64,000 nt of DNA from an uncultured Bacteroidales bacterium. Lineage in GTDB: Bacteria > Bacteroidota > Bacteroidia > Bacteroidales > P3. The position numbers and the translations under genes are program-made. Shown here one piece after another: positions 687-28,692 of the stretch; within the stretch, counting starts at the first letter, position 1; each line of letters starts with the position of its first letter. The notes below the pieces were generated by a model. The model was not told the DNA's origin. It ran no database searches and worked only from the letters and a program-made list of their open reading frames with translations. The stretch spans positions 1 through 64,000 of the forward strand of contig ONEY01000004.1 of NCBI GenBank assembly GCA_900316965.1, read 5' to 3'.

Positions 687-3206
687 TTAACGAACTTCAA
701 GAATGGCACCTTGCTTCACTGAGACCCCAGATTTCAGCAACACGTCATTTTCTGCGTCCATAATCACGTGAGAACCGTTCTCAAGAATTACATCACCGTA
801 TGGCTTCTGCGTGGTGACATCTCGTCCGGCTCGAATAGCATTACCTGTTTCATAGGCATTGCCATAATACGTTGTGTCTTGGATAAATCTGTTACTGCCG
901 AATTCTTGGAAATGGCCTTCACTCCCTATTGCTAGTGGGAAATTGACGAGTGGCGTCGCGGTACAGTTGCTTTGCCCTGAAAATATTTCAGGATTTAGAC
1001 CAAGTTGGTATCCATGATGTAAGTTGATGGCACTGAGCTCATTCACAAGCTCTATATTTGCACCGTCTTCTATACAAATATAAGCACCACTATTTATTTC
1101 AACATGTCCTGTTTTTTTTACCCTCAATGTCGCACCCGATTTTACATGGAGCGTTCCTGTCGCATTAATGTTCAGCACAGCACCATTTTCTATCTCATAC
1201 AAAGAACCAGACTCTAGTACCAATGTGGATTGGTTCTTGACGTTTACAGTTGAGGCTGACTCTTGTTTAAAAAATGAGCCATTTCTGCAAGTAAAAGTAG
1301 TCGGGTTAATAAAATCATCTATGTTCGATGAAGTCTGATTCTCATTTGCAGGATTTTTGTGGCGATTCGGTGTTCCACTTTTATCAATATCAACAGTGAC
1401 TGAAGATAATATGTCTACATCAGGAAGGTTATTACTTGTAATATCCGTTAGTACTATTGAGGATGCTGCCCAACGAACGTTTTTGTCTATTTTTACATCA
1501 TCAATTTGTATTTTGACTACCATGCTTCCATCAGAGTTATGACATAAAACCTCGAAAGATATACCATTTAGGTAATAATCTCCCATCTTTTTTAATGATT
1601 TGTTATATGTGGGAATGTTTTTTACACATGGGTTTCGTGCAATACCGACCTTGTCTCCACTTTTGAATTGTAAGCCTGTGCCAGTAAAATATTTGGCTGT
1701 TGGCAATTCATTGTCAACCTGAACAGCCTCGGTTTGCTCGTTCTCATGGTTAGTGCTATTATTGTCCGAATTGTATCCTATAAATCCATTATTATCAAAA
1801 TCATGTCTAATGGCTTCGTTGTTGTTTTGTCCACCGATTGGATTCTTATCCCCTTTAAATAATTGAAAAGTAGCATTGGAATCATATGGATTGCATAAAG
1901 CCCCTGGATATATTGGCATTAGACTAAAGGAGTAGTCGTAGTCTCCTCCCTCAGAAAGCCATCTGATTCCATTCCCATTGTTGAATAAATTCACATAGCC
2001 CTCATCTTTAACATGAGAATATGATTCCACGTATGCAATAAGTCCACGTTTGTATTCAGTTATGGGACTGTCACAAAAAGTTGTACCGTTGAAATTCCCA
2101 TCGAATGTAGATTGACACTGATGATTTTCCAGCCAAAGATATTGATACTTTCCACTTTCGGTAGGTATTCTGATCCTTATGGCATCTCCTGTTGTAATAA
2201 AATCCCTTAATGTGAATATGCCATTTGTTGCAGACAAGTCAGATGGACTGCTAATATCGGAATTAATCCCAGAGGCTTTTATTTGAGGAATCCAGTCAAG
2301 AATATAACGTTCCCAGCCCGTGGCACAAGTATAGCTTTGAGTCAAATGCATCATACCCCAACCAGCAATGGGCTCATAAAAGTAGTTCCCTGCCACATTG
2401 TTTCCTCCTGCATAATGAGGAGCATCGTATAGGCTATGCCCAACTTCGTGAGGGAAGATATCAATTGGATTAATAGTGCCGCTCGTGTGAGAAAAGCCTT
2501 CCCTTACTCCATAATTACCCATATTATTACCACTATAAGTTTGATTAATTCCAGTAGAGGATACTCCGTCATAATAGATTGATTTTAACCATCCTGGAGG
2601 TAGTATTGGGTTCCACTCCCTCGAAAATCTATGGCAAAATACAACATAATCTGCGATGTGATCCGCCGGAGACGAAGAGTTATCAAATGAATAATTGGGT
2701 TTGTTTTCCCTGTTGTCATACGGACTCCAATCGAAAGTGTTTGGTATTTGGTCTAAAACTTTTTTATGGAATTCTCCACGAGATGAAACAGTCGTGGGAT
2801 CTACCGTGATTACTTGAGGATAATAATCTGCCACTAATCGAAATCTACCACCAGACATTTGGTAATAGAAATTTGATACGGATTTACGATTGTTATCAGA
2901 ATATATCTCTTGTGGGAATTCTGCGAAATCGTTATAAAAAGCCTTTTCTGTAGACGAGGTCGCCCAATCCGGATATGCTCCATTATTCCAGCCTGGCAAG
3001 TCTAGGGTGTCATAGATTCCTCCATAAGTTATAAAAATAATTAATACACGCAAGTCCCCTTTTGGAGTAAACACTCCACCATTTTCGATATGAGATGTAG
3101 TCTTGGACTCTAACGTATTTGTTTGTTCATAGCCACATACAATCTGCCCTAAAGCGGTATGTATTATTAGTCCAATCAATAATAACAATATTAGACCCTT
3201 TTTCAT
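687..3206 (-). CDS. Secreted M6-like zinc metalloprotease
   Basis: 839 residues with an N-terminal signal peptide (residues 1-20, ending LG-Q). The motif HEVGH at 253-257, followed by SLYDAPHY, fits the HExxH zinc-protease signature of M6/immune-inhibitor-A-like peptidases; the glutamate is the expected catalytic base. The C-terminal third (about 645-839) is a low-complexity region with repeated xSGAxLxVxxxGxVxI units, as in right-handed beta-helix cargo of Bacteroidales, and lacks a clear type A sorting domain. It is the last gene of a three-gene operon: the preceding gene stops 1 nt upstream of this start. Probably degrades extracellular protein; substrate unknown. Confidence 0.75.
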   Translation of the reverse strand: MKKGLILLLLIGLIIHTALGQIVCGYEQTNTLESKTTSHIENGGVFTPKGDLRVLIIFITYGGIYDTLDLPGWNNGAYPDWATSSTEKAFYNDFAEFPQEIYSDNNRKSVSNFYYQMSGGRFRLVADYYPQVITVDPTTVSSRGEFHKKVLDQIPNTFDWSPYDNRENKPNYSFDNSSSPADHIADYVVFCHRFSREWNPILPPGWLKSIYYDGVSSTGINQTYSGNNMGNYGVREGFSHTSGTINPIDIFPHEVGHSLYDAPHYAGGNNVAGNYFYEPIAGWGMMHLTQSYTCATGWERYILDWIPQIKASGINSDISSPSDLSATNGIFTLRDFITTGDAIRIRIPTESGKYQYLWLENHQCQSTFDGNFNGTTFCDSPITEYKRGLIAYVESYSHVKDEGYVNLFNNGNGIRWLSEGGDYDYSFSLMPIYPGALCNPYDSNATFQLFKGDKNPIGGQNNNEAIRHDFDNNGFIGYNSDNNSTNHENEQTEAVQVDNELPTAKYFTGTGLQFKSGDKVGIARNPCVKNIPTYNKSLKKMGDYYLNGISFEVLCHNSDGSMVVKIQIDDVKIDKNVRWAASSIVLTDITSNNLPDVDILSSVTVDIDKSGTPNRHKNPANENQTSSNIDDFINPTTFTCRNGSFFKQESASTVNVKNQSTLVLESGSLYEIENGAVLNINATGTLHVKSGATLRVKKTGHVEINSGAYICIEDGANIELVNELSAINLHHGYQLGLNPEIFSGQSNCTATPLVNFPLAIGSEGHFQEFGSNRFIQDTTYYGNAYETGNAIRAGRDVTTQKPYGDVILENGSHVIMDAENDVLLKSGVSVKQGAILEVR

Positions 3207-3207
3207 A

Positions 3208-4104
3208 TTACTGTTTTATTATTTTAATTTGTGATTTCGAATAATTTGTCTCAACGAATAGCAAATATATTCCCTGTGGTAAATTCTTTATACAAACTTT
3301 GTCTTTACAACTGATATTGTCCAATATCAGATGCCCCATCATATCATAGATTTTTGCCGATTCAATATATTCGTCACTATTAATGTATATCCAATCGTTG
3401 CAGGGGTTTGGCCATATATGTACTTTTTGATTCTCTACGCAATCATTAATCCCCACAGGGCGAACAACACAGTCTTCTTCCGACCAGCCTTCCATGGAGT
3501 AGTGATAGATTAATTCCCCATCTTTGTGACAACAAACCATCCGGCTTCCGATGATATGCAAACGTAAATAATCTAAAAGATTTGAACAACCAACCCCCTC
3601 AATAAACATTATGGAGCGTTCGGTAAATTCATCAATGAGTGTAATTGTGTAATACCCGTCTTGTGTAAGTGTATCCAGTACAGTATACATGACACTATCT
3701 CGATAATCAACATAGTTTGGCAACCAAATTGTATCACCGATAGAAAGAGACATGTCTGCTATTATTAAATCGGCATTCCCATCCGGAAATCGACACCATA
3801 GCTTTCCTGTTGCAGTATCTTCCCTAAGAAAAAAATCAAGAGAAGAATCTCTGCCTTCAGAATAACCATTATGCCAATATACTGCAGAATACTCTACTTT
3901 CTTGAAATACATGTCACTAATCAATGTGTCATTGGTAATTCGCAATAATTGATTTTCCCATGGAACATCATAGTATTCCGTCACCCCGTTCCATTCAGTT
4001 GATTCCAGACCGAAAAAAGACTGGAATCCGTTCTGATGTTGAGCAAAACCAACTGTAGTATAACACAATGCTACCGAGCACAATAATAGTTTTTTCGTTT
4101 TCAT
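3208..4104 (-). CDS. T9SS type A sorting domain-containing protein
   Basis: 298 residues, signal peptide about 1-21 (ends in FAQ). The last 85 residues form a typical type A C-terminal sorting domain: IWPNPC near 228, then a YDMMG-type turn, LPQGIYLL and a lysine-rich end. This domain directs export through the T9SS and is normally cleaved off or used to anchor cargo at the cell surface. The central part (30-210) is not recognised; it has many Asp/Tyr/Trp residues and looks like a globular beta-rich domain. It lies between an S74-domain protein (8-nt gap) and a metalloprotease (1-nt gap), so the three are probably cotranscribed and exported together. Confidence 0.75.
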   Translation of the reverse strand: MKTKKLLLCSVALCYTTVGFAQHQNGFQSFFGLESTEWNGVTEYYDVPWENQLLRITNDTLISDMYFKKVEYSAVYWHNGYSEGRDSSLDFFLREDTATGKLWCRFPDGNADLIIADMSLSIGDTIWLPNYVDYRDSVMYTVLDTLTQDGYYTITLIDEFTERSIMFIEGVGCSNLLDYLRLHIIGSRMVCCHKDGELIYHYSMEGWSEEDCVVRPVGINDCVENQKVHIWPNPCNDWIYINSDEYIESAKIYDMMGHLILDNISCKDKVCIKNLPQGIYLLFVETNYSKSQIKIIKQ

Positions 4105-4112
4105 GACGATTC

Positions 4113-5285
4113 TTATTTTGTTAATACCATTCGTTTTGTTCCGACAATTTGTTCATCTACTACCAACGAATAAATATACATACCAGCATTAAGAGTGGAG
4201 CCACTGATAACCACTTGCCCATTGCCGAATGCATGTATGGGGTATGACTGCATCAGTTCTCCCGTTAAGTTGAAAACGAGTATATTTGCACTGGTTGCGT
4301 CTGTTGGAATAAAGTATTCGATTGTTGTAGCACTTGTGAAGGGGTTGGGGGAATTTTGATATAATACAGCACCATTTGTAATGGAGGAATTTGAGTTCGT
4401 ACTGCGATGAGCTCTAGATTCATGGTCAACGGTGGAGTCCGATTGCATCCCCCTAAGATAATCCTCGTAGTCCTCTATTAGATCTAAAGAAACTCCTCTG
4501 TTTTCAATGGCTGTGTACAATTCACGGAAAGCGGACACGATGATAGGAATCATTTCCAGATAGTTCACATACTGGTTACCCAACGAATCAAACTCAACAA
4601 TCTCCGGGAAAAGGTCAATAATCTCAGAGGTTATCAGACCATAACGGGTATCGCCAAAGCCTCGTGACTGTAAGGCGGATGTCGCAAGTTGTCTGGCTAA
4701 GTCCTCTTTTTCAGTTAAGCCTTCAGCTCTCTCTATTTCACCAACATTGCCAACAGGTTGAATATTATCAAGAGGTTTATAATTATATGTAACACCATTC
4801 AACCGCATTAATCTTGGAAGTGCATACTGAATGTTTCTGATTGAACTTTTATGGTTGTCATCAGAACTGACGGAGAGCCTATCCAGTCTGACACCATCGT
4901 ATATGGTAAACCGCGGAAGATAATCCCTTTGCCCATTATAGTTCCATTCTGCAACAATATAATCACCATTAAAGGCAGACATTTTGACTCCTTTTTTTCC
5001 ATGCAACCACAGAATATCTGAATCGTACGTGCCAAACTCTCCTATGAACACATTCCAACCATTGTGGTCATATCGTCCGAAATCACCAAATGCCAATTTT
5101 GAACCAGCATTGAATTCCCCGAGCCTTCCTTGAATTGACATTGAAAGAACTCGGTACATATCGTCATCCGGGCGGGTGTCGGGACCAACTATAACTCGAC
5201 CGTCGTTTTTGATGACAAGCTGGGCACTTGCCGTAAAAACCGAGAAAAAGAAAGTAGCCAGTATGATTATTGATTTTTTTTTCAT
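4113..5285 (-). CDS. S74-type chaperone domain protein with T9SS sorting domain
   Basis: 390 residues; signal peptide 1-21. Residues about 138-262 resemble the peptidase S74 intramolecular chaperone domain known from phage tail fibres and bacterial surface proteins (SVSSDD, then LPRLMRLNGVTYNYK, then YGLITSEIIDLFPEIV and a region corresponding to DYxxLIPxLxxAxREL). After a Ser/Thr linker (275-305), residues 307-390 are a type A sorting domain (SPNPF, AGMYIYSLV, final KRMVLTK). S74 domains in phage cut themselves off after helping trimer assembly; whether this one is active cannot be told from sequence. First gene of the 5285-687 operon. Confidence 0.75.
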   Translation of the reverse strand: MKKKSIIILATFFFSVFTASAQLVIKNDGRVIVGPDTRPDDDMYRVLSMSIQGRLGEFNAGSKLAFGDFGRYDHNGWNVFIGEFGTYDSDILWLHGKKGVKMSAFNGDYIVAEWNYNGQRDYLPRFTIYDGVRLDRLSVSSDDNHKSSIRNIQYALPRLMRLNGVTYNYKPLDNIQPVGNVGEIERAEGLTEKEDLARQLATSALQSRGFGDTRYGLITSEIIDLFPEIVEFDSLGNQYVNYLEMIPIIVSAFRELYTAIENRGVSLDLIEDYEDYLRGMQSDSTVDHESRAHRSTNSNSSITNGAVLYQNSPNPFTSATTIEYFIPTDATSANILVFNLTGELMQSYPIHAFGNGQVVISGSTLNAGMYIYSLVVDEQIVGTKRMVLTK

Positions 5286-5309
5286 TTTTTTGTTGTATTT
5301 ATTTTTTGT

Positions 5310-5562
5310 TAAGCTCTTATTTCGCGAGAGCTATTGCGGTTGCTGTAGCACTGTGTGGATTTGCGCAACATTTTCTACTGCCACACAATAGAGTTAGTCG
5401 ATCTACGTTATTAAAAGCAATGTAGAGCAACTGCTCTATGCCTCGGGTGCGGGACGGCAGGGAAGCGTGCGTTGCGAGTTTCTAAATACAATCACGCTCT
5501 CCCTGCTTGGGCACCCTCTCTTTTTTGCCCCGACACAACGGCGCACCAAACTTGTGCGGGGC
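5310..5562 (+). ncRNA. Structured intergenic region, candidate plus-strand small RNA
   Basis: The 466-bp gap 5286-5752 has no gene but holds several inverted repeats: AGCTCT/AGAGCT (5312-5332), TGTGTGG/CCACACA (about 5352-5387), TAGAGCA/TGCTCTA (5423-5438), a long stem GGGTGC-GCAGGGAAGCGTG with CACGCTCTCCCTGC-GCACCC (5445-5516, one bulged base in the inner 13 bp), and CCCCG-CACAA with TTGTG-CGGGG (5528-5562). The long stem is followed on the plus strand by CTCTTTTTTG, the layout of a plus-strand terminator, yet no plus-strand gene precedes it. This suggests a small RNA of roughly 200 nt. No known family is recognised. Confidence 0.3.
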
Positions 5563-5628
5563 TTTGCTATATGAACTGCATGGTTTAGAGAGTGAATTGA
5601 CGGTTATTCCCGCCTTTTTACATTAATT

Positions 5629-5664
5629 AAGTGGTTAATCTGTGTGGCCGCACACTAACCATGG
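5629..5664. repeat. 36-bp imperfect palindrome, copy A
   Basis: Begins AAGTGGTTA and ends ACTAACCATGG, with TGGTTA/TAACCA and GTGTG/CACAC arms. It matches copy B at 7317-7352 at 28 of 36 positions by eye, same length and orientation. It lies just downstream of the NDT-like gene, so it may act as a terminator, although no strong T-tract follows on the minus strand, or it may mark the cassette boundary. Confidence 0.5.
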
Positions 5665-5752
5665 TTGATTTGATTTTTCTTGACCATTTTGAGACATGTG
5701 ACAGGTTTTTGATGGATGAGCTGCCTCACCATAACCAATTTCAGTATAAACA

Positions 5753-6190
5753 TCATTTATCTATCTGTTGTAAAGCGTTGAACAACGTTTTGCAAATGTT
5801 GATGTCAAAATCCAGCAGAAGAGCCTTAATGCTGGACTTGCTTAATCCTTTAGCCAAAAATGGGAGATCATTAAAGTTGCCTATGATGATTATTCTCTTT
5901 TGTAAGGCACAGGCATAACCTAATTCAATCAATGAACTTGTTTGCATTCTTCGGGGATGAATCAGTAAAAAAACATCAGACTTTTCGATTTTCATAAAGT
6001 CTTCATCAACTGATTTGCTTGGGCTGTCAAAACAATTATCGCTATCAATATGTTCAAATTCGTTATAAACTGAATGCCCAAAACTTTTAAGCATATCAAT
6101 AATCGACACTGCATGTTCTTTAAATGACAAGAAGTCTTGAATGTTGCCAAACCCAGTAATTGGCGTTGAAACAAAAATGGTTTTAGTCAT
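5753..6190 (-). CDS. Stand-alone nucleoside 2-deoxyribosyltransferase-like protein
   Basis: 145 residues. The order of motifs matches the nucleoside 2-deoxyribosyltransferase (NDT/RCL) fold: first strand IFVSTPITG (5-13), a helix, then KSDVFLLIHP (70-79) and SSLIELGYACALQK (85-98), where E89 aligns with the catalytic nucleophile glutamate of NDT enzymes. NDT relatives transfer or hydrolyse the N-glycosidic bond of deoxynucleosides or nucleotides. The same module forms the C-terminus of the TIR protein encoded 15 nt upstream, so this looks like a partner subunit from duplication. Cellular substrate unknown; nucleotide cleavage or binding in a defence role is an inference. Confidence 0.6.
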   Translation of the reverse strand: MTKTIFVSTPITGFGNIQDFLSFKEHAVSIIDMLKSFGHSVYNEFEHIDSDNCFDSPSKSVDEDFMKIEKSDVFLLIHPRRMQTSSLIELGYACALQKRIIIIGNFNDLPFLAKGLSKSSIKALLLDFDINICKTLFNALQQIDK

Positions 6191-6205
6191 TATTAGTCTA
6201 GTTAA

Positions 6206-7279
6206 TTATTCATTGTTATCCTCGCTAAAAAGAAGCATTTTGTTGGAAAGAATTTCTTTCTTAAGGTCAGCGAATGTCGAGTATTGACGAACACGTACGT
6301 GTGGAATATTGTCACCAGCATTCTTGATTAGATAGGGAAGGCTTTTTTTGTAGAATATAACTGTTTTTTTGCATAAAGCAATAGCATAACCCAATTCTAC
6401 AAAAGAGCTGGATGGGCGCGGTTTATCAACGATTAAAACAAAACTGTCGACTTGTTTGAGTTTCCTGAAATTATTCTTTACGGCAACATCTTTCCCTTCA
6501 AAATGCGATTTGTCTTCGATTTCAGCAGCAGGACAAGTTACCTCAGAGAATCCAATTGTTGATAATGCCCCAACTATTTCTTTTAATTCTTTGCGCTGCA
6601 ACTGATAATCATCAGTTGACAATGTGCTCATTGGTGCACTGACAAAAACCGTATTCCTTTTAATCGTACTAATTTCCTTAGGATAAATGTATTCGGTATT
6701 ATAGAATCCTTCCCCCTTCAACTTGCCAAAAACCTTTTTGAAGTCTCTCTGAAGTTTTACATAGGCTTTTTTCGAGATTTCATCCAGTTGTGTTTTATCG
6801 ATGTCGATTAACTTTAATTCTTCATTGATGTCAGAAATCATCTTGCAAAATTTTACCCTATCATGGAACTGTACACCATCGCGAGACCGGAATCTGTCAC
6901 GGGGTTGGTCATTGTCATGAAACTGGACACATTGCTTGTCTTGTAACGGGGTTCCTTGTATTGCCTTTTCACTACAATTGAAAAGCAACGGTATGGTTAA
7001 AATGTCATTCCCTGCCAAGGCACCAGCTTCATAGTGAATCCAAGGGGATCTTACGGTGTCCTTGGTGACGCACACGATACCAAACTGGGCACCTTTTAGA
7101 ACATTATTGATTTTGTTTTTCCAATCTTCACCACAGGTGATATTCATGTCGGAAACAAAACACTTCACTTTGCCGGGGAAAATATCGTTTTCTATTCCTT
7201 GTTTCAGTTTTTTGGCGATAGTCTTCCCATGTTCGCCAGACCAACTGATAAAAATCTTATACTCTGTCTTCTTGCTCAT
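6206..7279 (-). CDS. TIR domain protein fused to an NDT-like domain
   Basis: 357 residues from the start at 7279 (an upstream ATG at 7306 would add nine basic residues). Residues 7-90 are a TIR domain: YKIFISWSG, a KVKCFVSD strand, and SPWIHYEAGALAG, where E84 occupies the position of the catalytic glutamate of NAD-cleaving TIR domains. Residues 91-200 are a charged linker with a near-repeat VQFHD (118-122, 136-140). Residues 208-345 repeat the NDT-like fold of the neighbour (NTVFVSAPMS; VDSFVLIVDKPRPSSSFVELGYAIAL, E295). No signal peptide or membrane segment; probably cytosolic. TIR proteins of this type often serve in antiphage defence; no direct evidence here. Confidence 0.7.
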   Translation of the reverse strand: MSKKTEYKIFISWSGEHGKTIAKKLKQGIENDIFPGKVKCFVSDMNITCGEDWKNKINNVLKGAQFGIVCVTKDTVRSPWIHYEAGALAGNDILTIPLLFNCSEKAIQGTPLQDKQCVQFHDNDQPRDRFRSRDGVQFHDRVKFCKMISDINEELKLIDIDKTQLDEISKKAYVKLQRDFKKVFGKLKGEGFYNTEYIYPKEISTIKRNTVFVSAPMSTLSTDDYQLQRKELKEIVGALSTIGFSEVTCPAAEIEDKSHFEGKDVAVKNNFRKLKQVDSFVLIVDKPRPSSSFVELGYAIALCKKTVIFYKKSLPYLIKNAGDNIPHVRVRQYSTFADLKKEILSNKMLLFSEDNNE

Positions 7280-7316
7280 TTTGTTTCTTTTTTTGTGATA
7301 ATACATCTATGAAATA

Positions 7317-7352
7317 AAGTGGTTAGTGGGCGTGGGTGCCCACTAACCACGG
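7317..7352. repeat. 36-bp palindrome, copy B, with 13-bp perfect stem
   Basis: GTGGTTAGTGGGC (7319-7331) and GCCCACTAACCAC (7338-7350) form a perfect stem with a 6-nt loop. It lies between the end of the T9SS gene at 7454 and the start of the TIR gene. On the minus strand it is followed by ACTTTATTTC, so it may terminate the upstream gene; it also resembles copy A beyond the other end of the TIR/NDT cassette. Confidence 0.6.
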
Positions 7353-7453
7353 ATTGTTTTGGCTATTTCTTCACGAGTTTGAGGTATGACACAAGCTCCT
7401 GTGGAGTGCGTGGAGAGGCATTTTTTGGGGCTACGGGTGTTTGAGGGCTGGAA

Positions 7454-9442
7454 TTATTTCTTCACAATTGTCTTCACTCCGTATTTGTCTTTGGTGCACA
7501 CCACGAGGAGGTATTGTCCTGCGGGAAGTGTGCTGATGTCGATCTCGGTCAACTGACTTTCACACTTTCTGGTCATTACGGCCTTGCCGTTAACGTCGTA
7601 GATTGTCATTTCATACGGTTCTGGTTGGTTCAGCTGCACTGTTAGCCGTCCAGTTGTTGGATTGGGTGAGACGGAGAGCTCCAGTGTAGCGGCTTGATTG
7701 ATGCCTATGCTTGACGAGTCGAATGAGAAGATGGCGGTAAAGAGAGTGTCCTGCGTGACGGTGATGGTGCGGGGCGAATCTTCATTGCCGTCCGACCAGC
7801 CGTCGAAGATGCAGTACATCGCCGGGGTGGCGGTGAGGATAGCCTCATCGCCACCCACGTATGTGCCGCTGCCTTCAACTGTGCCCCACTCAACGTTGTT
7901 GACGGCTGTCTGCACGTGATATAGTGGCAGCTCAATGAAGTGGGTGACAAAGGCGGTGTCGCAGGTTAGGTATATCGTGAGGGGGTTGTCGGTAAGGCTG
8001 TCGCCAGTGGCGTTACTCCAGTGCGTGAAACGGAATCTCTCTGCAAAAGGATTGGCGGTAATGGTGTGGTAGGTGCCACCCGAGTAGCTGCCGCCGCCGG
8101 TGACGTTGCCCATCGTCACATTTGCCGAAGAGACTTGGAGATTAAACATCTGGCTGCTGATATCCTGGAAATAGGCAACAAAAGCGGTGTCGCTGACGAG
8201 GTGAATGATGCGCGTGGTCTCGGTGCTGCCATCGTTCCAGTGCAAGAACCTGTGACCGAGGGTTGGTGCTGCAGATATTGTAACATCGGAGGCGTAGTAG
8301 GTGCCGCTGCCAGTGACTGTACCCATCGTCTCGCCCGATGCAGAGACCTGCAAGTTGAACTGCTGAGTGCACTGGAAGGTCGCGACGATTGTCGTATCGC
8401 TCATAAGATGCACCACGCGTGGGTTGTCGGTCACGCCGTCGCTCCACGAAACAAAGGCAAAGCCCGGTGCGGGAATGGCCGTGATGGTGTCGTCGCTCTC
8501 GTCGGGGAAGCGTCCGCCGCCAAGCACCTCGCCCCAGCCCGTCTCATTAGGCATGGCATTGAGGTCCCATTTGTCCACAATGACAAGGTAATATCCCACA
8601 GGGCTGTAGGGCCAGTCGCTCATCCAGACGCCGCCAAGCGCAGGGCTAAACCAATTATCCCAAAAGGCATACGGCCTGCCTGGAAGATGGCAGCTGTGTT
8701 GATCTTGGAATAACGGTCCATCGGAACCTATCAAATCATGATAGTTACTTATGTCGCATCCTGTTTTGGGATCTAACATATATTCGCCTAAATCCATAAT
8801 ATCAACATAGACAGTAGGAATTCTTCCGTTACTGTTAACACTATTATACCCACTGTTTGTAGAACCGACAATAAAAAATTCGGTATCCACCCACACCGGC
8901 TGCTCAAAATATGCCTCGTATAGATAGCAGTATTGGACATACTCATCGTTCCATCCCTGACGGAGCTCCATTACACGCGCAGTGGCCGTATCCCACCTCA
9001 CAGAGTCAAGCAGTTGAAGTCGGACCGTATCGTCAATTTCCTGAAATACCCGATGGCCAGCCGCAGTCATCTGGTATAGATAAAGATATTCGGGTAGTTT
9101 CTGTACAACAGCGGCGGTGTCGACAGTCGGCGGATTGTAATTTTGCACCATTGCTACCAATCCCTTCACCTTCATATGTCTGTTGTGTGCATATTCCCAT
9201 TTGGCAATATTCGCACCTTCCAAATAACGATGAAACTTGTATTTAAAACAGAAACAGCTGTCCCATACACCATTAGGTCGCCAGTTCGGACAATCGTCAA
9301 ACCACTTGGTGTAATAATATTTGTCACAACGCGGGGTTGCAGGTATTGTGTCGTCCACATCCGACGGACTTATCGTTGATGCCAAGGCTATTCCTGGCAT
9401 TACAAACAGTGCAAGGATTAGTATACTATATAACTTTTTCAT
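7454..9442 (-). CDS. T9SS-exported protein with InlB-type repeats
   Basis: 662 residues, signal peptide about 1-21. Residues 25-290 are an unrecognised N-terminal domain. Four consecutive divergent InlB B-type repeats follow (about 300-355, 360-425, 430-500, 505-572), each with the pattern GTVxGxGTY, LTATP-like, FxxWSDG and DTxFxAxF. The final 80 residues are a type A sorting domain (VSPNPTTGRL, then IYDVNGK, LPAGQYLLVV and terminal KK). The protein is expected at the cell surface; InlB-like repeats serve as spacers or adhesive modules. Base composition changes near 8690: the repeat-plus-sorting part is clearly more GC-rich than the N-terminal part. Last gene of the run that begins with the sigma factor at 13430. 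Confidence 0.75.
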   Translation of the reverse strand: MKKLYSILILALFVMPGIALASTISPSDVDDTIPATPRCDKYYYTKWFDDCPNWRPNGVWDSCFCFKYKFHRYLEGANIAKWEYAHNRHMKVKGLVAMVQNYNPPTVDTAAVVQKLPEYLYLYQMTAAGHRVFQEIDDTVRLQLLDSVRWDTATARVMELRQGWNDEYVQYCYLYEAYFEQPVWVDTEFFIVGSTNSGYNSVNSNGRIPTVYVDIMDLGEYMLDPKTGCDISNYHDLIGSDGPLFQDQHSCHLPGRPYAFWDNWFSPALGGVWMSDWPYSPVGYYLVIVDKWDLNAMPNETGWGEVLGGGRFPDESDDTITAIPAPGFAFVSWSDGVTDNPRVVHLMSDTTIVATFQCTQQFNLQVSASGETMGTVTGSGTYYASDVTISAAPTLGHRFLHWNDGSTETTRIIHLVSDTAFVAYFQDISSQMFNLQVSSANVTMGNVTGGGSYSGGTYHTITANPFAERFRFTHWSNATGDSLTDNPLTIYLTCDTAFVTHFIELPLYHVQTAVNNVEWGTVEGSGTYVGGDEAILTATPAMYCIFDGWSDGNEDSPRTITVTQDTLFTAIFSFDSSSIGINQAATLELSVSPNPTTGRLTVQLNQPEPYEMTIYDVNGKAVMTRKCESQLTEIDISTLPAGQYLLVVCTKDKYGVKTIVKK

Positions 9443-9489
9443 AATTTTTTTTACTTTACTTGAAAAATGCTATTCAATTTGCCCACATA

Positions 9490-11001
9490 CTATTCTTTAA
9501 CACAAGGAAATTCCTTTTCTATTTCATTATCTATTAAAGGAATATATGTTACAGGGTATGTAACTTCATCATAAGGGAATCGGTGAATAATACGCAATTG
9601 GTTTTCGATAAGTTGATGTTCTACAGTAATAGGTTGAGCCTCAACATCGTTTTCTTTATGGCAGCTCTGTTCATATCCGCCACCATTTTCCCCTCTTTGA
9701 GACATCAGATACAATGGTGAAAAAATGTTATTCTTTTCCATTCCACTCCAGAACAAATGCTCATAACCATTCCTCTTTTGAAGTGTTATGGATTGGAATA
9801 GAATACCATCATCCAAATACTGTTTGACTGGATATCTGCAATACCTGTTTTTGTTCCAAGTTAAAATGGAAACAATGTCGGAGTTATGTTCTTCAAAAAG
9901 AACCGCCGTAGCATTGTTTGATGGTAAATGGATTAATTCCTTAACCAAAGGTGTGCTTTCAAGGTATGCTCCTCTTAAAAATTTAAGCCTTCCGTTAGGA
10001 TAGTCGTATTGGCTGTTGAAGAGTCCTTCGTTCTTCTCAAATTTAATATGATAGCTTACCTCTATTCCATTGCCTGTTGTGAAACAGATTTTTGCAGGGT
10101 CATACCTGAAGAATTTCTCAATCTCATTATAACTATCACACTCGGGTTCAATAATCAAAGGTGTAAAAAGAATTGCATTTACACTATCGTTCAGTTCTAA
10201 TCCTCCCATAATTAGGTGGTCTTCTTGTCCGCTGTATCTAATCCACTGTTCAATTCCTGTGATATCGTTTGAAACGGTAACAACATAATCATCAGTGATA
10301 GTGATATCTGTAAGCACTTCATTAGTATTAGTTCTTATATTGTTATCCCATCGAACACTTCCCAAACAATCGGGGTAGAATTTGGCTCTACAAAAACAAG
10401 ACGGAGCATTAACCAAGTCATCTAGTCCAATGATATCAAGAACAGCATTGTCTAGGAATGTGTTTTGAATATGATAATAAAGGCTATACTCCTCTGCATA
10501 GCATACCATTCTATATAATTCTTTCGTTTTCTCTACGTCACGCACTTTTACTGTATAAGAAGAAGAAGGACTCAAGGCTTCATCCATAGAGAAAAAACCA
10601 GCGAACCCGTGTGTCAAGTACCCTTGATTTCCAAGTTCTGTTCTTGTACCGCAGAAACAGCAAAAGTCTACAGGTTCAAAAGTACCATTTTTACGAAGAG
10701 TAACGAACCTGACATCATTGACTTTATACCCTTTTGGCAAATCAAAAATGTGCTTAATATCGCCAGTAGTTGTGTTTTGAATCATAAACGAAGTATACCC
10801 TTTGATTGTGTCTGCACGAGGTGCATTCGTAAAATAGCCATACTGTGTCAAGACATTGTATGTCTCATTGTAATTGCGCACAATCGAGGTGTACTGGACG
10901 TAGTCCGGTGAGCGAAATATCTGTTCTATCTCAGAAATTTGAGCAGCAAGCCTTAAAAAAGGCAAAAATAAAATCAGCAGTAAAATTGTTTTTTTTGACA
11001 T
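9490..11001 (-). CDS. Exported protein of unknown function
   Basis: 503 residues with a clear signal peptide (1-20, ending LAAQ). The mature part is rich in beta-type sequence, Tyr and Asp, with a CCFCG cluster near residue 95. No domain is recognised, and there is no type A or B sorting domain, so its final location (periplasm or surface) is open. It lies 47 nt upstream of the InlB-repeat gene and 75 nt downstream of a lipoprotein gene, all on the minus strand, suggesting cotranscription. It may be a surface component working with its neighbours. Confidence 0.6.
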   Translation of the reverse strand: MSKKTILLLILFLPFLRLAAQISEIEQIFRSPDYVQYTSIVRNYNETYNVLTQYGYFTNAPRADTIKGYTSFMIQNTTTGDIKHIFDLPKGYKVNDVRFVTLRKNGTFEPVDFCCFCGTRTELGNQGYLTHGFAGFFSMDEALSPSSSYTVKVRDVEKTKELYRMVCYAEEYSLYYHIQNTFLDNAVLDIIGLDDLVNAPSCFCRAKFYPDCLGSVRWDNNIRTNTNEVLTDITITDDYVVTVSNDITGIEQWIRYSGQEDHLIMGGLELNDSVNAILFTPLIIEPECDSYNEIEKFFRYDPAKICFTTGNGIEVSYHIKFEKNEGLFNSQYDYPNGRLKFLRGAYLESTPLVKELIHLPSNNATAVLFEEHNSDIVSILTWNKNRYCRYPVKQYLDDGILFQSITLQKRNGYEHLFWSGMEKNNIFSPLYLMSQRGENGGGYEQSCHKENDVEAQPITVEHQLIENQLRIIHRFPYDEVTYPVTYIPLIDNEIEKEFPCVKE

Positions 11002-11076
11002 AAATTAAATATTAAAAATCAACAGCTTAATCATTAACTAATTAGTAGATATTTCGAACATATAGTTGTTTGTAAA

Positions 11077-11490
11077 CTATTTTATCGCATTGCAGGTATA
11101 TATTCCTGTTTCCTTGTCAAAGCGTATAGTTACAGTATATCCTTCGTCTGACATCTTATCTGCCCAAGCATAGGCATCATCGTGATTGGTGGTGGTGTAG
11201 GTTACAACATCCTTTGAGGAAAGAACACGCGAGGCTCTATCCTCGTTGCGGAAACTGACTTCATGTCCTTCTTCCGCCAAGGCGAACATACGATTCAGAA
11301 AATCGTGCCATGCGTCTTCTCCAATAAGCGTGATATGGTGGGTCGCTCCGTCAACCGAATAACTCACTGTGAAAACGGTACCGTTTTCAGCAACGACACA
11401 GGTGTCGTCAATAATGTTTTCTTTCTGGCAACTGACCGCCAGCGTTCCGAGCACTGCAAAGAGTGCGATGGTAATGAAAATTTTACGCAT
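11077..11490 (-). CDS. Small lipoprotein of unknown function
   Basis: 137 residues. The N-terminus has a lipoprotein signal with the lipobox LAVSC (cysteine at residue 21), so the mature protein is expected to be lipid-anchored in the envelope. The rest is a compact alpha/beta sequence with no recognised domain. It lies 10 nt after the 166-residue membrane protein gene, within the sigma-factor-led run. Confidence 0.6.
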   Translation of the reverse strand: MRKIFITIALFAVLGTLAVSCQKENIIDDTCVVAENGTVFTVSYSVDGATHHITLIGEDAWHDFLNRMFALAEEGHEVSFRNEDRASRVLSSKDVVTYTTTNHDDAYAWADKMSDEGYTVTIRFDKETGIYTCNAIK

Positions 11491-11500
11491 AATATCTGTT

Positions 11501-12001
11501 TTATTGATTAGTAGATTTGTCGTAATTGTAGTGTCTTACTGCGTTTAGTTCTTCCTTATTCTTGATGTGGAAAACTGTTAATGTGCGCTTCAAGTGGGAG
11601 ATGGCAAGAAGATTATTGGAGTATGAGTCGAGGATGGTATCTGTGGTGGTGGACTTGGGAATTACTTTTACATAAATCAAATCTTCTCCGTTGTCTATGA
11701 ATTGCTGGACGTCAGGAGGTGGGTTGGGTACTTCAAAATCTTTTTTTAGGGTGGTCCAAATAACGGAATCTGTTGCCTCCAACAGTGTGACATCGACAAA
11801 GACGGTGTCATTTACTTTATAATCCTTGACAAAAGAAACATCGATACCTTCAACTTTCTCATAACGAGCATATATTTCGCTGACCTCGTTGGAAGGGAAG
11901 ATGTATTTCCACTGTATGGCTATGTAGCAGACGAGAGCCTCCACGAGAGCAAGGATGGCTATGATCAGCCAAAAGCGTTTTTTATTAAAAGGACGTTTCA
12001 T
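11501..12001 (-). CDS. Single-pass membrane protein of unknown function
   Basis: 166 residues; basic start MKRPFNKKR followed by one hydrophobic segment (about 10-32), then an exported soluble part. Its ATG overlaps the stop of the preceding gene (ATGA, 11998-12001), which implies translational coupling with the 259-residue membrane protein. No domain recognised. The arrangement sigma factor, membrane protein, membrane-anchored protein resembles sigma/anti-sigma loci, but no anti-sigma motif is visible. Confidence 0.55.
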   Translation of the reverse strand: MKRPFNKKRFWLIIAILALVEALVCYIAIQWKYIFPSNEVSEIYARYEKVEGIDVSFVKDYKVNDTVFVDVTLLEATDSVIWTTLKKDFEVPNPPPDVQQFIDNGEDLIYVKVIPKSTTTDTILDSYSNNLLAISHLKRTLTVFHIKNKEELNAVRHYNYDKSTNQ

Positions 12002-23230: not shown

Positions 23231-26014
23231 TTACCTAATCAGAGTCACTGTGCCTTTCTGCGAAAGCACCCTGCGCTCTCCGCTTCGACGATAAGTGGTG
23301 ATGTAGACGTATGTGCCTTCTTTGCAGTCTTTTCCTTTGTATTTTCCATCCCATCCTTTCTCAATATTGTTGGACGAGAATATCAATATTCCTTCTCTGT
23401 CGTAAACATAGAGCTGATAGTCGTCAAGTAGGTTGGCGGTGTAAGGTTTAAAGATATTGTTGGTTTCCAATCTTGGTGTGAAAGCGTTGGGGAACCATAC
23501 CGCGAAGATGCCTACCGGCACATAGAATGATGTATCGCGCGAGCAGCCCAGGGGATTGGAGGAAACCAACGACACTAGTATCGAATCCTGGCTGAGGTCG
23601 GTGAAGGTGAACACTACTGTGCGTGTCGACGAGGTGTTGCCGTTGCCGAAATTCCACAGCGAGGCTGACGAATTCTCCGACAGGTCTGAGAACTGCACCG
23701 ACGGATTCTCCGAGTCGATATAATCGGGTGTCAAGCTTACGTGGAGTATGGGATATGGATACACTGTGATTTTCTGCGTCAACGCTGTAGCTCCACAGCC
23801 GTTGGTTCCGTGTCCTATAACGCTATACACTGTGGTTTCTTTGGGTGAGACTTTTATTTCTGACTCTGTGCTTTGTCCATTGAGGTCTGGGTCAGGAGGA
23901 TTAGAACTCCACTCAAAGTAGGCGGCCTTTCCTGCTGTTAGCGTAACTGTGTCGCCTGTACAGATACGGGCTTTGTCGGTCTGCAGGTCGGGCTTTACAA
24001 GATATAGGTTGATGCTGTCCCATGTTACGCATCCCAGAGGACTGGTAACTTTTACGAAATAGGTGCGGTCCTGTGTTATCGTTGTCGCCAAATGGCTAGT
24101 ATTTTCTACCGCCGGCGATGTGCCGCCCATAACGTAATACCAGTCGAAATCGCAGTTTTCTACTGTGCTGTTGACCTGAACGTCGGAATGGTCTCCGTTG
24201 CAGACAATGGTGTCGCCAAGTACAGTAAGTTCAGGATATTTGCCTACATTGATACGAAATGTGGTGTCGGAATAGCAATAGACATGTTCGGTGATTCCGT
24301 CTCCTGTGGTGTCGGCAACATAGAATTGCGACCCTCGTGTCAGCAACGTGATGTCAGTAATGGTGTCGAACGAAAAGCGTATTGCCTGCGTGGGCGAATT
24401 GAAGGTGGAGTCTCCCACCGTCCAGCGGTGATAGCCGGAGCCTGTGGTGATGTCTGATATGATAATGGTATCTCCCTCACATATATCGTTCCGACTAATG
24501 TTTACTCGTGGCACAGGGTTCTTGATGGTTCGTATAGCTACGGTCTTCTCGTTCCAACAGTTGGCTCCGACAGTGCGGGTGCGCACCTTGACGCTGTAGT
24601 TGCCCCCTGTGGGATAAGTGTGGCTAGCGTGTCCGCCTATAACACTGTCCACCAAACTTGCCGTCGTAGGATTGGGTGTGCTGTAGAAATACCATCGTGT
24701 GAGTGAGGTGTCGACAAGCTGGGTGTCGTTGTTGTGGAACGGAGTGTAGCTGAGATCGCGAAGAGTGATGTTGGCGTTGCAGCCCAATACGCTGTCGACA
24801 ACCAAAGCGGGCTTGGTGTTGCCCACGGTGACGGGCAGATAGGTGACAACAGGATAGCTCTCATTCATCTGTGTTGTCATCTTGCAGCGGAAGGTATTCT
24901 GTGTCAATGTGTCGCCATCGGAGCGTCTGACGAAGTTGCTGACCACGGTGTTCAAAATTGAGTCGGTCTGATTCTCAATAAGCTCATAGTTGGCTGCATT
25001 GTTGACCTCGTCACCCGTTAGGGGTCCGTTCTTGCTGCGGTACCATGCGTATGATATTGCTCCCTTAGGCGCGGCTATGCGAGCCACACTCTCTGACTCT
25101 CCTGCCGCACATCCGTTGGCGGTAAGCTCCATGGGCTGGCACTCGCCGGCAATATAACAAAGTGCATAGTGCTGGCTCTGGGAACAGTCGCCTGCAGCGA
25201 TTTTGATTCTTACTGTCTGGTATTGCAACTTGCTAAGGTTGACGATAACCTTTTGCCAAGGCAGGTAGACATTGCAGCTATAGCTGGCTCCTGTATGAGT
25301 TCCGGTAGAAGCTACATAGAATGGATCCACATTGGTATTTGATCCCGCAGGGGTAGGACGTATGTAACACAGAGTGTCTCCACTTGCCAGAACCCAGTTG
25401 TTGCCAACTCTTTTCTCTACTGTAATGGCAAACTCGGGGTTTTGGCTGGAGCTATGCTGTCCATTCTGCAGCGATAGGGCATACCATATCGTCAAAAGTG
25501 CATTCTTCGGATTTACAGTCATCTCATAGGTAAGCATCTCGAATAGATGATTGCCACAATAATTACCCAACCTAATTGAGGTATGGAATGATGTGTCGGG
25601 AGGCAGATAAGACAAACGGTTCTGTGTCTCGTTATCATTTCCTGGTCCCTTGATAACAAACCTCTTCTGATAGTCAGGTTGATTATCAATATTTTTCGAC
25701 AACGAAGGCGTGCTACTTACTTGATAGTCGCACGTGCTTCCTCCAACTACGGTCTCCAAGTCGCTAGCTTGCACCGCTGTAAGCGTGGTTCCTGGAATTA
25801 GTCCAGGCGCCGTACATGTGCTTTCTACACTTCCTTTCTCTCCGGTATAGCCTTTCCATGATGTTTGTCCAGCACCACCGGTAACAACGAAGTTGGACGG
25901 ATTTTTCAATCCTATACAGTTGGGGTTCTGTGTATAGTTAGGCCTTTGCGCCTGCATCACCCCTAGCGTGCATAGGGAAAATACTAATAAAAGAAAATAA
26001 CGTTTCATATTCAA
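23231..26014 (-). CDS. T9SS type B sorting domain protein, intact paralogue
   Basis: 927 residues, signal peptide about 1-22 (ends MQAQ). The N-terminal third is unrecognised; residues about 300-820 hold several Ig/PKD-like beta domains. The final 90 residues form a type B (gliding-motility-type) sorting domain: VWFPNAFTP, FKPYTANLLDDYQLYVYDREG, GWDGKYKGKDCKEGTYVY and an ending KGTVTLIR. Such proteins are large surface adhesin-like cargo. It lies downstream of a second, highly similar copy at 26326-28986; the sequences from about residue 290 on are almost the same. Promoter -7 element at 26085. Confidence 0.85.
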   Translation of the reverse strand: MNMKRYFLLLVFSLCTLGVMQAQRPNYTQNPNCIGLKNPSNFVVTGGAGQTSWKGYTGEKGSVESTCTAPGLIPGTTLTAVQASDLETVVGGSTCDYQVSSTPSLSKNIDNQPDYQKRFVIKGPGNDNETQNRLSYLPPDTSFHTSIRLGNYCGNHLFEMLTYEMTVNPKNALLTIWYALSLQNGQHSSSQNPEFAITVEKRVGNNWVLASGDTLCYIRPTPAGSNTNVDPFYVASTGTHTGASYSCNVYLPWQKVIVNLSKLQYQTVRIKIAAGDCSQSQHYALCYIAGECQPMELTANGCAAGESESVARIAAPKGAISYAWYRSKNGPLTGDEVNNAANYELIENQTDSILNTVVSNFVRRSDGDTLTQNTFRCKMTTQMNESYPVVTYLPVTVGNTKPALVVDSVLGCNANITLRDLSYTPFHNNDTQLVDTSLTRWYFYSTPNPTTASLVDSVIGGHASHTYPTGGNYSVKVRTRTVGANCWNEKTVAIRTIKNPVPRVNISRNDICEGDTIIISDITTGSGYHRWTVGDSTFNSPTQAIRFSFDTITDITLLTRGSQFYVADTTGDGITEHVYCYSDTTFRINVGKYPELTVLGDTIVCNGDHSDVQVNSTVENCDFDWYYVMGGTSPAVENTSHLATTITQDRTYFVKVTSPLGCVTWDSINLYLVKPDLQTDKARICTGDTVTLTAGKAAYFEWSSNPPDPDLNGQSTESEIKVSPKETTVYSVIGHGTNGCGATALTQKITVYPYPILHVSLTPDYIDSENPSVQFSDLSENSSASLWNFGNGNTSSTRTVVFTFTDLSQDSILVSLVSSNPLGCSRDTSFYVPVGIFAVWFPNAFTPRLETNNIFKPYTANLLDDYQLYVYDREGILIFSSNNIEKGWDGKYKGKDCKEGTYVYITTYRRSGERRVLSQKGTVTLIR

Positions 26015-26325: not shown

Positions 26326-28692
26326 TTACCTGATAAGTGTAACCGTGCCTTTTTGGGTCATCAGGCGCTCGACTCCGCTTCTGCGATAGGTTGCAACGTA
26401 AACATATGTGCCTTGTCGGCAGTCGTGACCTTTATAAGTTCCGTCCCAGCCTTCCTCTATGTTGTTGGTTGAAAATACCAATGAGCCAAAGCGATCGTAA
26501 ATAAAGAGCTGATAATCCTCAAGGACATTTGCTGTGTAGGGTTTGAAGATTTTGTTAGTTTCAAGAATAGGTGTGAATGCATTGGGGAACCACACAGCGA
26601 AGATGCCTACCGGCACATAGAATGATGTGTCGCGCGAGCAGCCCAAGGGATTGGAGGATACCAACGACACTAGTATCGAATCCTGACTGAGATCGGTGAA
26701 GGTGAACACTACTGTGCGTGTCGACGAGGTGTTGCCGTTGCCGAAATTCCACAGCGACGATGAGGAATTCTCCGATAGGTCTGAGAACTGCACCGACGGA
26801 TTCTCCGAGTCGATATAGTCGGGCGTCAAGCTAACATGAAGTATGGGATATGGATACACTGTGATTTTCTGCGTCAACGCTGTAGCGCTGCAGCCGTTGG
26901 TGCCGTGACCTATAACGCTATACACTGTGGTCTCTTTGGGCGATACAGTAATCTCGGAAGAGGTGCTTTGCTCGTTAAGATCGGGGTCGGGAGCTTTGTC
27001 GGTCTGCAGGTCGGGCTTTACAAGGTATAGGTTGATGCTGTCCCATGTTACGCATCCCAGAGGACTGGTAACCTTTACGAAATAGGTGCGGTCCTGTGTT
27101 ATCGTTGTCGCCAAATGGCTAGTATTTTCTACCGCCGGCGATGTGCCGCCCATAACATAGTACCAGTCGAAATCGCAGTTTTCTACTGTGCTGTTGACCT
27201 GAACGTCGGAATGGTCTCCGTTGCAGACAATGGTGTCGCCAAGTACCGTGAGCTTTGGATATTGTCCCACATTGATACGGAATGTGGTGTCGGAATAGCA
27301 ATAGACATGTTCGGCGATTCCATCTCCTGTGGTGTCGGCAACATAGAATTGCGACCCTCGTGTCAGCAACGTGATGTCGGTGATGGTGTCGAACGAAAAG
27401 CGTATTGCCTGCGTGGGCGAATTGAAGGTGGAGTCTCCTATCGACCAACGGTGGTAGCCGGAGCCTGTGGTGATGTCTGATATGATAATGGTATCGCCAG
27501 AGCAAAGATCGTTACGGCTGACATTGACGCGAGGTACCGGGTTCTTGATGGTGCGTATTGATACGGTCTTCTCATTCCAGCAGTTGGCTCCGACGGTGCG
27601 GGTGCGCACCTTGACGCTGTAGTTGCCCCCTGTGGGATAAGTGTGGCTAGCGTGTCCGCCTAAAGCGCTGTCCACCAGACTTGCCGCTGTAGGATTGGGT
27701 GTGCTGTAGAAATACCATTTTGTGAGTGAGGTGTCGACAAGCTGGGTGTCGTTGTTGTGGAACGGGGTGTAGCTGAGGTCGCGAAGAGTGATGTTGGCGT
27801 TGCAGCCCAACACGCTGTCGACAACCAAAGCGGGCTTGGTGTTGCCCACGGTGACGGGCAGATAGGTGATTACTGGATAGCTATCATGCATCTTGGTTGT
27901 CATCTTGCAGCGGAAGGTATTCTGTGTCAATGTGTCGCCATCGGAGCGTCTGACGAAGTTGCTGACCACGGTGTTCAAAACAGAGTCGGTCTGATTCTCA
28001 ATAAGCTCATAGTTGGCCGCATTGTTGACATCGTCACCCGTTAGGGGTCCATTCTTGCTGCGATACCATGCGTAGGATATAGCTCCCTTAGGCGCGGCTA
28101 TGCGGGCGACACTCTCTGACTCTCCTGCCGCACATCCGTTGGCGGTAAGCTCCATGGGCTGGCACTCGCCGGCGAAATAGCAGTATCCATAGTGTGCGCT
28201 CCAACAACAGTCACTAGTGGCAATCTTAATTCTCACACGCTGGTATTGTAGTTTGCTGAGGTTGACAATAACCTTATTCCACGGCAGGTATGCATTATCT
28301 GACGTTCCTGTCAGGAAGTCTCCCATAGCATTGGTGGAAGTAGGGCTTTGTTTGATGTAGCACAATGTGTCGCCAGAGGCTCTTACCCATTGGTTGCCTG
28401 ACCTTTTCTCGACGATGATAACAAACTCTGGATTTTCGGCCGCGGGATGGAAAACCTTATACAAAGAAACGGCATACCAGATTGTAACCAGAGCGTTCTT
28501 AGGAGTGACATCGAATTCATAGCATAACATCTCCGCCTCATGTCCGCCACAGGGTGTTCCCAACCTGATAGAGGTGTGGAAAGATGTGTCGGGAGGAAGG
28601 TACGACAGATTGTTGTTTGTTAGGGCATCGGTACCAGGTCCTTTGATCACAAAGCGTCTAGTATAGTCAGGCTGCCCATTAATGTCGGTCAT
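26326..28692 (-). CDS. T9SS type B protein, C-terminal part of a split gene
   Basis: 788 residues without a signal peptide. It is in the same frame as the 94-residue ORF upstream; a single TAG at 28702-28704 divides them. The sequence from about residue 170 to the end is nearly identical to the paralogue at 23231-26014, including the type B sorting domain (VWFPNAFTPILE to KGTVTLIR). Compared with that copy, 24 residues (72 nt) are missing at about 26993, removing an RICTGDTVTL-containing strand. The ATG at 28692 is probably just the first in-frame Met, so the exported form would not be made unless the stop is read through or is a sequencing error. Confidence 0.7.
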   Translation of the reverse strand: MTDINGQPDYTRRFVIKGPGTDALTNNNLSYLPPDTSFHTSIRLGTPCGGHEAEMLCYEFDVTPKNALVTIWYAVSLYKVFHPAAENPEFVIIVEKRSGNQWVRASGDTLCYIKQSPTSTNAMGDFLTGTSDNAYLPWNKVIVNLSKLQYQRVRIKIATSDCCWSAHYGYCYFAGECQPMELTANGCAAGESESVARIAAPKGAISYAWYRSKNGPLTGDDVNNAANYELIENQTDSVLNTVVSNFVRRSDGDTLTQNTFRCKMTTKMHDSYPVITYLPVTVGNTKPALVVDSVLGCNANITLRDLSYTPFHNNDTQLVDTSLTKWYFYSTPNPTAASLVDSALGGHASHTYPTGGNYSVKVRTRTVGANCWNEKTVSIRTIKNPVPRVNVSRNDLCSGDTIIISDITTGSGYHRWSIGDSTFNSPTQAIRFSFDTITDITLLTRGSQFYVADTTGDGIAEHVYCYSDTTFRINVGQYPKLTVLGDTIVCNGDHSDVQVNSTVENCDFDWYYVMGGTSPAVENTSHLATTITQDRTYFVKVTSPLGCVTWDSINLYLVKPDLQTDKAPDPDLNEQSTSSEITVSPKETTVYSVIGHGTNGCSATALTQKITVYPYPILHVSLTPDYIDSENPSVQFSDLSENSSSSLWNFGNGNTSSTRTVVFTFTDLSQDSILVSLVSSNPLGCSRDTSFYVPVGIFAVWFPNAFTPILETNKIFKPYTANVLEDYQLFIYDRFGSLVFSTNNIEEGWDGTYKGHDCRQGTYVYVATYRRSGVERLMTQKGTVTLIR

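Follow-up and report, generated by a model that had tools for sequence, protein, structure and literature searches.

A TIR-NDT fusion and a stand-alone NDT-like protein form a rare, sporadic two-gene unit

Layout of the gene pair and its flanks

The 64,000-nucleotide stretch of Bacteroidales DNA analysed here (the window) carries two neighbouring genes, one for a TIR-NDT fusion and one for a smaller protein of the NDT-like fold, separated by 15 nt (Table 1). The sequence-only reading had proposed this arrangement, and the reading frames, Pfam matches and predicted structures all bear it out. The TIR domain of the fusion is the sole TIR_2 match in the window's genome. In the AF2 model of the fusion (pLDDT 89.1), the linker between the two domains consists of helices at residues 135-155, 162-179 and 181-189. 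Structure comparison had been suggested as a check on the folds, and the predicted models resemble TIR NADases and MilB/DNPH1 N-glycosidases, with the TIR fold of TIR-domain NADases and the NDT fold of the MilB/BcmB/DNPH1 branch both present. Among proteins of known structure, the closest kin are the nucleotide N-glycosidases of this branch and not deoxyribosyltransferases.

Table 1. Positions of the two genes, their domains, key codons and flanking repeats in the window.
Feature	Position	Strand	Remarks
Gene 1, TIR-NDT fusion, 357 aa	6206..7279	-	open frame; TIR_2 E 9.3e-14, Nuc_deoxyrib_tr E 2.1e-6
TIR domain, about residues 7-128	6896..7261	-	codons W80 7040-7042, E84 7028-7030
Linker of helices joining TIR to NDT, about residues 135-190	6710..6877	-	3 helices in AF2 model
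Fused NDT-like domain, about residues 206-353	6221..6664	-	
Fused NDT codons	N270 6470-6472, E295 6395-6397	-	N270 at the catalytic Asp position
Gene 2, stand-alone NDT-like protein, 145 aa	5753..6190	-	
Gene 2 codons	F6 6173-6175, D64 5999-6001, E89 5924-5926	-	
Upstream flank with hairpin	7315..7388	.	arms 7319-7331 / 7338-7350; common to same-genus copy L002
Downstream imperfect copy of flank repeat	5627..5702	.	47 nt at 74%; 78 columns at 76.9% to L002 9887-9964

The GC content of the pair is 37.0%, as against 45.9% for the window. A closely similar copy is found in the same-genus locus L002, where positions 9891-11505 are 84.9% identical to window 5749-7388 over 1641 columns, hairpin flank included, and where the same pair lies between different genes than in the window. 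The flank repeat in L002 starts with the end of a gene for a secretion-tail protein (YLKLVKK-stop). The hairpin-bearing flank repeats may be a mark of the unit's movement, or they may be a terminator. Taken together, rare occurrence, low GC and different neighbours in L002 give the pattern of an accessory, moving unit. The 10 plasmid and 6 phage records with a match have it in the TIR part alone; none reaches 80% coverage of the fusion, no record of either kind matches the partner, and of the 48 viral contigs with a match none extends past query residue 221.

Ten nearby ORFs of the window gave Pfam matches only to secretion-tail, InlB-repeat, Peptidase_S74 and DUF3078 models. The downstream neighbour, a 390-aa gene, has a homologue in 11 of 119 genus genomes, and four of these 11 stretches were compared with the window as possible empty sites. 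The pair is in none of the four, one of which holds just 0.46 kb upstream of the homologue, but as conservation is also lacking for the upstream neighbour, the comparison yields no clean empty site. In genus loci without the pair, its three downstream genes (window 687-5285) recur together, with an 839-aa homologue in 4/4 and a 298-aa homologue in 3/4 of the loci examined. Elsewhere in the window, two large adjacent genes (23231-26014 and 26326-28692) appear by eye to be recent tandem copies with long near-identical stretches.

Recurrence of the pair and its genomic surroundings

A protein search returned 108 relatives, about 60 of them with the fusion, and a scan of genome contigs returned 49 loci, eight of which hold a full-length fusion (L002-L009). 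The partner lies directly behind the fusion in all eight. It had been stated beforehand that finding the pair only here would count against it as a system; it recurs instead, at seven loci distinct from the window (L003 nearly duplicates the window, and L002 comes from the same genus). The record names of the eight loci include Bacteroidales/Bacteroidetes, Clostridia (Oscillospiraceae, Defluviitaleaceae and another Clostridia), Atopobiaceae and Salinimonas. A ninth locus, L044, is cut at the contig end and retains the tail of the fusion and the partner, L048 is a 101-aa fragment, and the remaining loci of the scan are mostly TIR-only matches. The two reading frames overlap in five of the eight loci (L002, L004, L005, L006 and L008, the last with an uncertain start), and the intergenic gap is +15 in both the window and L003, +1 in L009 and +65 in L007.

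When nine whole carrier genomes were searched with the partner profile (E <= 1e-5), only the partner and the fused domain were found, in 9/9. Within the genus, three of 120 genomes carry the pair, each with exactly both parts. In a sample of the phylum, the window's own genome is the single carrier among 395. A similar picture is seen in the order of G493 (1/394 sampled genomes, G493 itself), in the order of G499 (2/392 with the partner, both already known carriers) and among 391 genomes of the class Clostridia, where the centre genome is the only carrier and one more has a 71-aa remnant. The relative G030 does not count as a carrier, having a TIR-type match alone (residues 7-179) and no fusion. 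The pair is thus a real, rare and sporadic two-gene unit.

In the sampled genomes, partner-like sequence without the fusion was limited to two cases. The first is the broken 71-aa remnant in G587 (L130:8134-8349), listed in the search table as a 101-aa open frame; its neighbours appear by eye to be a DNA adenine methylase and its restriction enzyme. The second, in G1487 (L131:7931-8395), is a MilB/BcmB-like protein, the nearest non-partner match in the genome samples, which by eye adjoins a thymidylate-synthase-like gene.

A tree built from 60 fused domains and 29 partners, with a BcmB-like outgroup, places the fused domains in a single group (100/99). No one clade unites the partners, as the L007 partner falls beside the fused group in a tree with several long branches, for which the program warned of false joins. 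By this tree the two copies parted before the family spread, in an order that is unsure. Over eight pairs, the distances for the one protein correlate with those for the other at 0.946, a value reached by none of 20,000 permutations, and at 0.819 without L002 (63/20,000 as high); L003, being a copy of the window, was omitted, and the L002 fusion was represented by P0004, which differs by one residue. Shared descent alone can explain this co-variation.

Whether the pair sits in defence islands had also been set as a check, and recognised defence genes do lie near five of the eight loci, as judged from ORFs chosen by eye. The scans covered 10 + 10 ORFs, together with overlapping sets run against Pfam, and since control loci are absent, enrichment of defence genes around the pair is an impression with no statistic. 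L002 has AbiH (PF14253, E 8.2e-41) and a HEPN/nucleotidyltransferase pair as neighbours, L006 a PtuA-like ATPase with its PDC-M01 partner (Septu-like), and L009 SIR2, HNH and ThsB_TIR. In L004, ThsA_Macro (PF20016, E 2.8e-40; L004:1188-2054) lies about 0.3 kb upstream of the fusion, and in L008 it lies 0.24 kb downstream of the partner (E 8e-38; L008:11704-12570) and is followed by a ThsB-like TIR. L005 offers only a candidate (PDC-S01), and the 3.2-kb contig of L007 is too short for its neighbours to be judged. For the window and its near copy L003, the 10 window ORFs searched against Pfam include no defence gene.

ThsA_Macro occurs in two of the ten carrier genomes, once in each and both times adjoining the pair, and the window's genome is without it. 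An all-against-all comparison of the neighbouring ORFs at nine loci revealed no third common gene, the only matches being those between the same-genus loci L002 and L003 and the ThsA of L004 and L008. With no other effector gene common to the loci, the pair appears self-contained outside L004 and L008. The L004 contig itself gave no ThsB match, and two ThsB-like matches are on another contig of that genome. A ThsB-like TIR protein there (L133:3267-6990) adjoins genes that by eye resemble a caspase-type protease and a DUF4062-type protein.

Active sites of the TIR and NDT-like domains

TIR NADases are established defence enzymes. The best solved relatives of the present TIR domain by sequence are NADase TIRs (7uxr, AbTIR). 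Conservation in the fusion was taken from an alignment (A3) of 56 of the 108 relatives, the window protein and six locus proteins, which left out near-copies, partial rows and 46 TIR-only matches (P0065-P0110). E84, singled out by the sequence-only reading, is the conserved catalytic Glu of TIR-domain NADases and, like W80, is invariant in the 62 letter-bearing rows. F10 is present in 61/61 rows and is aligned to the Phe that AbTIR and other NADase TIRs have. According to the available part of PMC11204291, a position at which ThsB2 and deoxynucleotide enzymes carry Tyr is usually Phe or Ala in NADase TIRs, and F10 probably occupies this position.

In the stand-alone protein, D64, F6 and S85 are each found in 29/29 sequences and E89 in 28/29, with Lys in L006. 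The stand-alone protein therefore has both the catalytic Asp and the catalytic Glu, as aligned to MilB and BcmB; the partner profile matches BcmB with E 7.7e-15, and the same two residues are aligned in the comparison with MilB. In DNPH1, the corresponding chemistry is divided between D80, which protonates the leaving base, and E104, which is the nucleophile (PMC10603095, in the part available).

The fused domain differs at the first of these positions. N270 pairs with D64 in a profile alignment, and the columns are also placed by HMMER alignment to BcmB and MilB. Asn is found here in 57 of 62 rows, with Asp in 2, Thr in 2 and Ser in 1, the rows being related sequences and not independent events. 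At the Glu position (E295), 58/61 rows have Glu and 3 have Asp; at the Phe/Tyr position, 37 rows have Tyr and 26 have Phe (n=63). The catalytic Asp-Glu pair is thus incomplete in the fused domain, and the two NDT modules are unequal, with Asn replacing the catalytic Asp of the fused one in most rows. The earlier description of the second gene as a copy of the same fold was accurate for the fold, but not for the equivalence that it implied.

The top Nuc-deoxyribosyltransferase match of the fusion profile in the PDB is 8pqp, a D62N mutant (E 0.022), and other chains of the same enzyme score at E 0.067-0.77. N62 of 8pqp aligns with N270. Judged by alignment, the Asn of the fused domain is the same change as the engineered D62N of a solved enzyme, so evolution would have made in this domain the change that enzymologists used to stop the enzyme class. 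NDT catalysis is not strictly kept, given the Lys for Glu in L006 and the Asp at E295 in three fusions.

Some indications of the ligand come from MilB. In the accessible text of PMC10603095, F17 of MilB, in place of Y24 of DNPH1, goes with ribose substrates; R23 is an Arg used on the base and the phosphate in hydroxymethyl-CMP recognition (PMC4081090, in part). The position of R23, six after F6, holds Ser or Thr in 28/29 partners and Ala in one, so that neither Arg nor Lys is found there, and the phosphate-binding S97-x-G99 of MilB is not kept in the partners. Since both features are missing, no substrate can be named. Hydroxymethyl-CMP sensing, which the MilB match had suggested, was dropped on account of the Ser/Thr at the recognition position in 28/29 partners.

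A possible nucleotide-gated TIR module and its relation to known systems

To our knowledge, the trigger of many TIR proteins is not known. The reading of the pair that we prefer, and hold to be quite possible if still short of probable, is that of one antiphage module in which the NDT pair senses a nucleotide and the TIR domain then destroys NAD+, so that a heterodimer of a live and a dead NDT gates the TIR NADase. In such a module, the competent stand-alone NDT would pair with the non-competent fused NDT, as suggested by the self-pairing of MilB and DNPH1; MilB is a dimer in the part of PMC4081090 consulted. The stand-alone subunit would still bind or cleave a ribonucleotide, for its Phe stands at a position that is Tyr in deoxynucleotide enzymes, and the loss of the MilB Arg argues against hydroxymethyl-CMP as that ligand. 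The fused subunit would only bind. A change in nucleotides during infection would alter the NDT dimer and allow the TIR domains to assemble, whereupon destruction of NAD+ would stop the infected cell. The TIR domain is taken as the effector because it is the only obvious one, ThsA at two loci being the sole further gene that the neighbourhoods have in common.

A more elaborate version, which we regard as somewhat doubtful in its entirety, describes the pair as a split, duplicated N-glycosidase. Its dead copy would be joined to a TIR NADase and its live copy would stand alone, the heterodimer would read the ribonucleotide state in phage infection and fire the TIR, and in some lineages the unit would have been coupled to Thoeris, where it would offer another way to trigger ThsA-macro.

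The main competing explanation is that the TIR domain, like ThsB, produces a diffusible signal of the ADP-ribose type to which a separate effector responds, with the NDT pair setting the timing and ThsA-macro serving as effector in some lineages. Thoeris combines one ThsA with one or several ThsB, and ThsA-macro binds ADPR (PMC11204291, in the part available). The ThsA_Macro genes beside the pair in L004 and L008, each the sole such match in its genome, fit this arrangement. However, eight of ten carrier genomes, including that of the window, are without ThsA_Macro. Furthermore, the ThsA of L004 may be a leftover or be served by another protein, as the two ThsB-like matches elsewhere in that genome suggest, and plain ADPR from a depleting NADase would reach ThsA too. 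A signalling TIR is, on this evidence, rather unlikely.

The pair of NDT domains could also be a protein sensor that recognises a phage protein, its old active site being a leftover, with the TIR domain still an NADase effector. There is precedent in Swarozyc, a single-protein TIR system that is switched on by portal (PMC13174449, in part), and in SpbK, which is switched on by YonE (PMC12847820, in part), and catalytic residues are indeed lost in some NDT domains. A mere scaffold would have no need of D64, F6 and S85 in 29/29 partners and E89 in 28/29, however, and this explanation is unlikely.

If both chains were nucleotide-consuming effectors, the TIR domain would cut NAD+ and the stand-alone NDT the ribonucleotide pool. 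The partner has the Asp/Glu pair and the Phe of ribonucleotide N-glycosidases, and DRHyd domains have been proposed as NADase effectors in conflict systems (PMC9503650, in part). This leaves the Asn-bearing fused NDT with no role and sits poorly with the Lys for Glu in the L006 partner, which makes it very unlikely. A regulator or salvage enzyme of nucleotide metabolism with no defence role, as the metabolic functions of MilB, BcmB and DNPH1 and the window's own neighbours might suggest, is highly improbable in view of the patchy occurrence (3/120 genomes in the genus, 1/395 in the phylum), the low GC and the defence genes near five of eight loci.

Should the preferred reading of a nucleotide-gated TIR NADase be true, the pair would form a new bacterial link between nucleotide sensing and cell shutdown. 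With a split, nucleosidase-like pair as the switch, the trigger would be a defined small molecule that could be searched for in infected cells; mutants with which to probe it follow directly from the live/dead pairing. As the family occurs in several phyla, in copies that are few and scattered, it would bring a so far unnamed system into the defence catalogue. From the two ThsA-macro loci one would in addition see how sensing modules are swapped between systems.

The pair was not found as a named system in PADLOC 2.0.0 or NCBIfam 20.0, nor was a description found in the open-licence PMC text searched, and an earlier mention elsewhere is possible. Labels of known systems were set aside because the PADLOC, NCBIfam and Pfam matches are domain-level or weak only. 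The sequence-only reading, which had recognised no named system such as Thoeris in the pair, thus holds as far as these two collections go, but a link to Thoeris is possible in view of ThsA_Macro beside the pair in two lineages.

A retron was likewise considered and rejected, as window 4000-10000 contains no Rfam retron RNA (one match lies far below the gathering score) and the 10 neighbouring ORFs no reverse transcriptase in Pfam scans. Retron effectors include NDT-like modules (PMC12548924, in part), and a TIR effector is also known from the name of NCBIfam NF042941, which the TIR domain of the fusion matches weakly (E 6.9e-6; score 25 bits, cut-off 600). The best PADLOC match of the TIR domain is TIR-TM (E 1.1e-24, residues 8-124). 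It covers the TIR part only (2-117 of 293 positions), and the present protein has an NDT domain and, in the predicted structure, no membrane part.

The TM-macro type of Thoeris resembles the pair in having a TIR protein in defence islands, and ThsA_Macro adjoins the pair at two loci. The TM-macro ThsA effector is nonetheless missing from most carrier genomes, as noted above, and ThsB has no NDT domains. Also, the present TIR is nearer to the TIR_2 and TIR-TM models than to ThsB_TIR, which it matches below the cut-off (E 0.15); the match to PADLOC ThsB is weak (E 7.4e-4). SpbK and Swarozyc, as described in the available parts of their sources (PMC12847820; PMC13174449), similarly join a TIR or TIR-like domain with a catalytic Glu to another module and use no separate effector. 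Unlike theirs, the extra module here has the NDT fold and is accompanied by a stand-alone partner of that fold.

The TIR/DRHyd/SLOG superfamily has been proposed to supply nucleotide-processing conflict domains (PMC9503650, PMC7159879 and PMC8195603, each in part). In comparison with MilB, BcmB and DNPH1, the fold occurs here twice, in unlike copies of which one is fused to TIR; the base- and phosphate-binding Arg of MilB is missing in both copies, and the fused copy has Asn for Asp. TIR NADases and NDT-like retron effectors were thus already known, and what appears to be new is that a TIR-NDT fusion is paired with a stand-alone NDT and that the two NDT domains are not equivalent.
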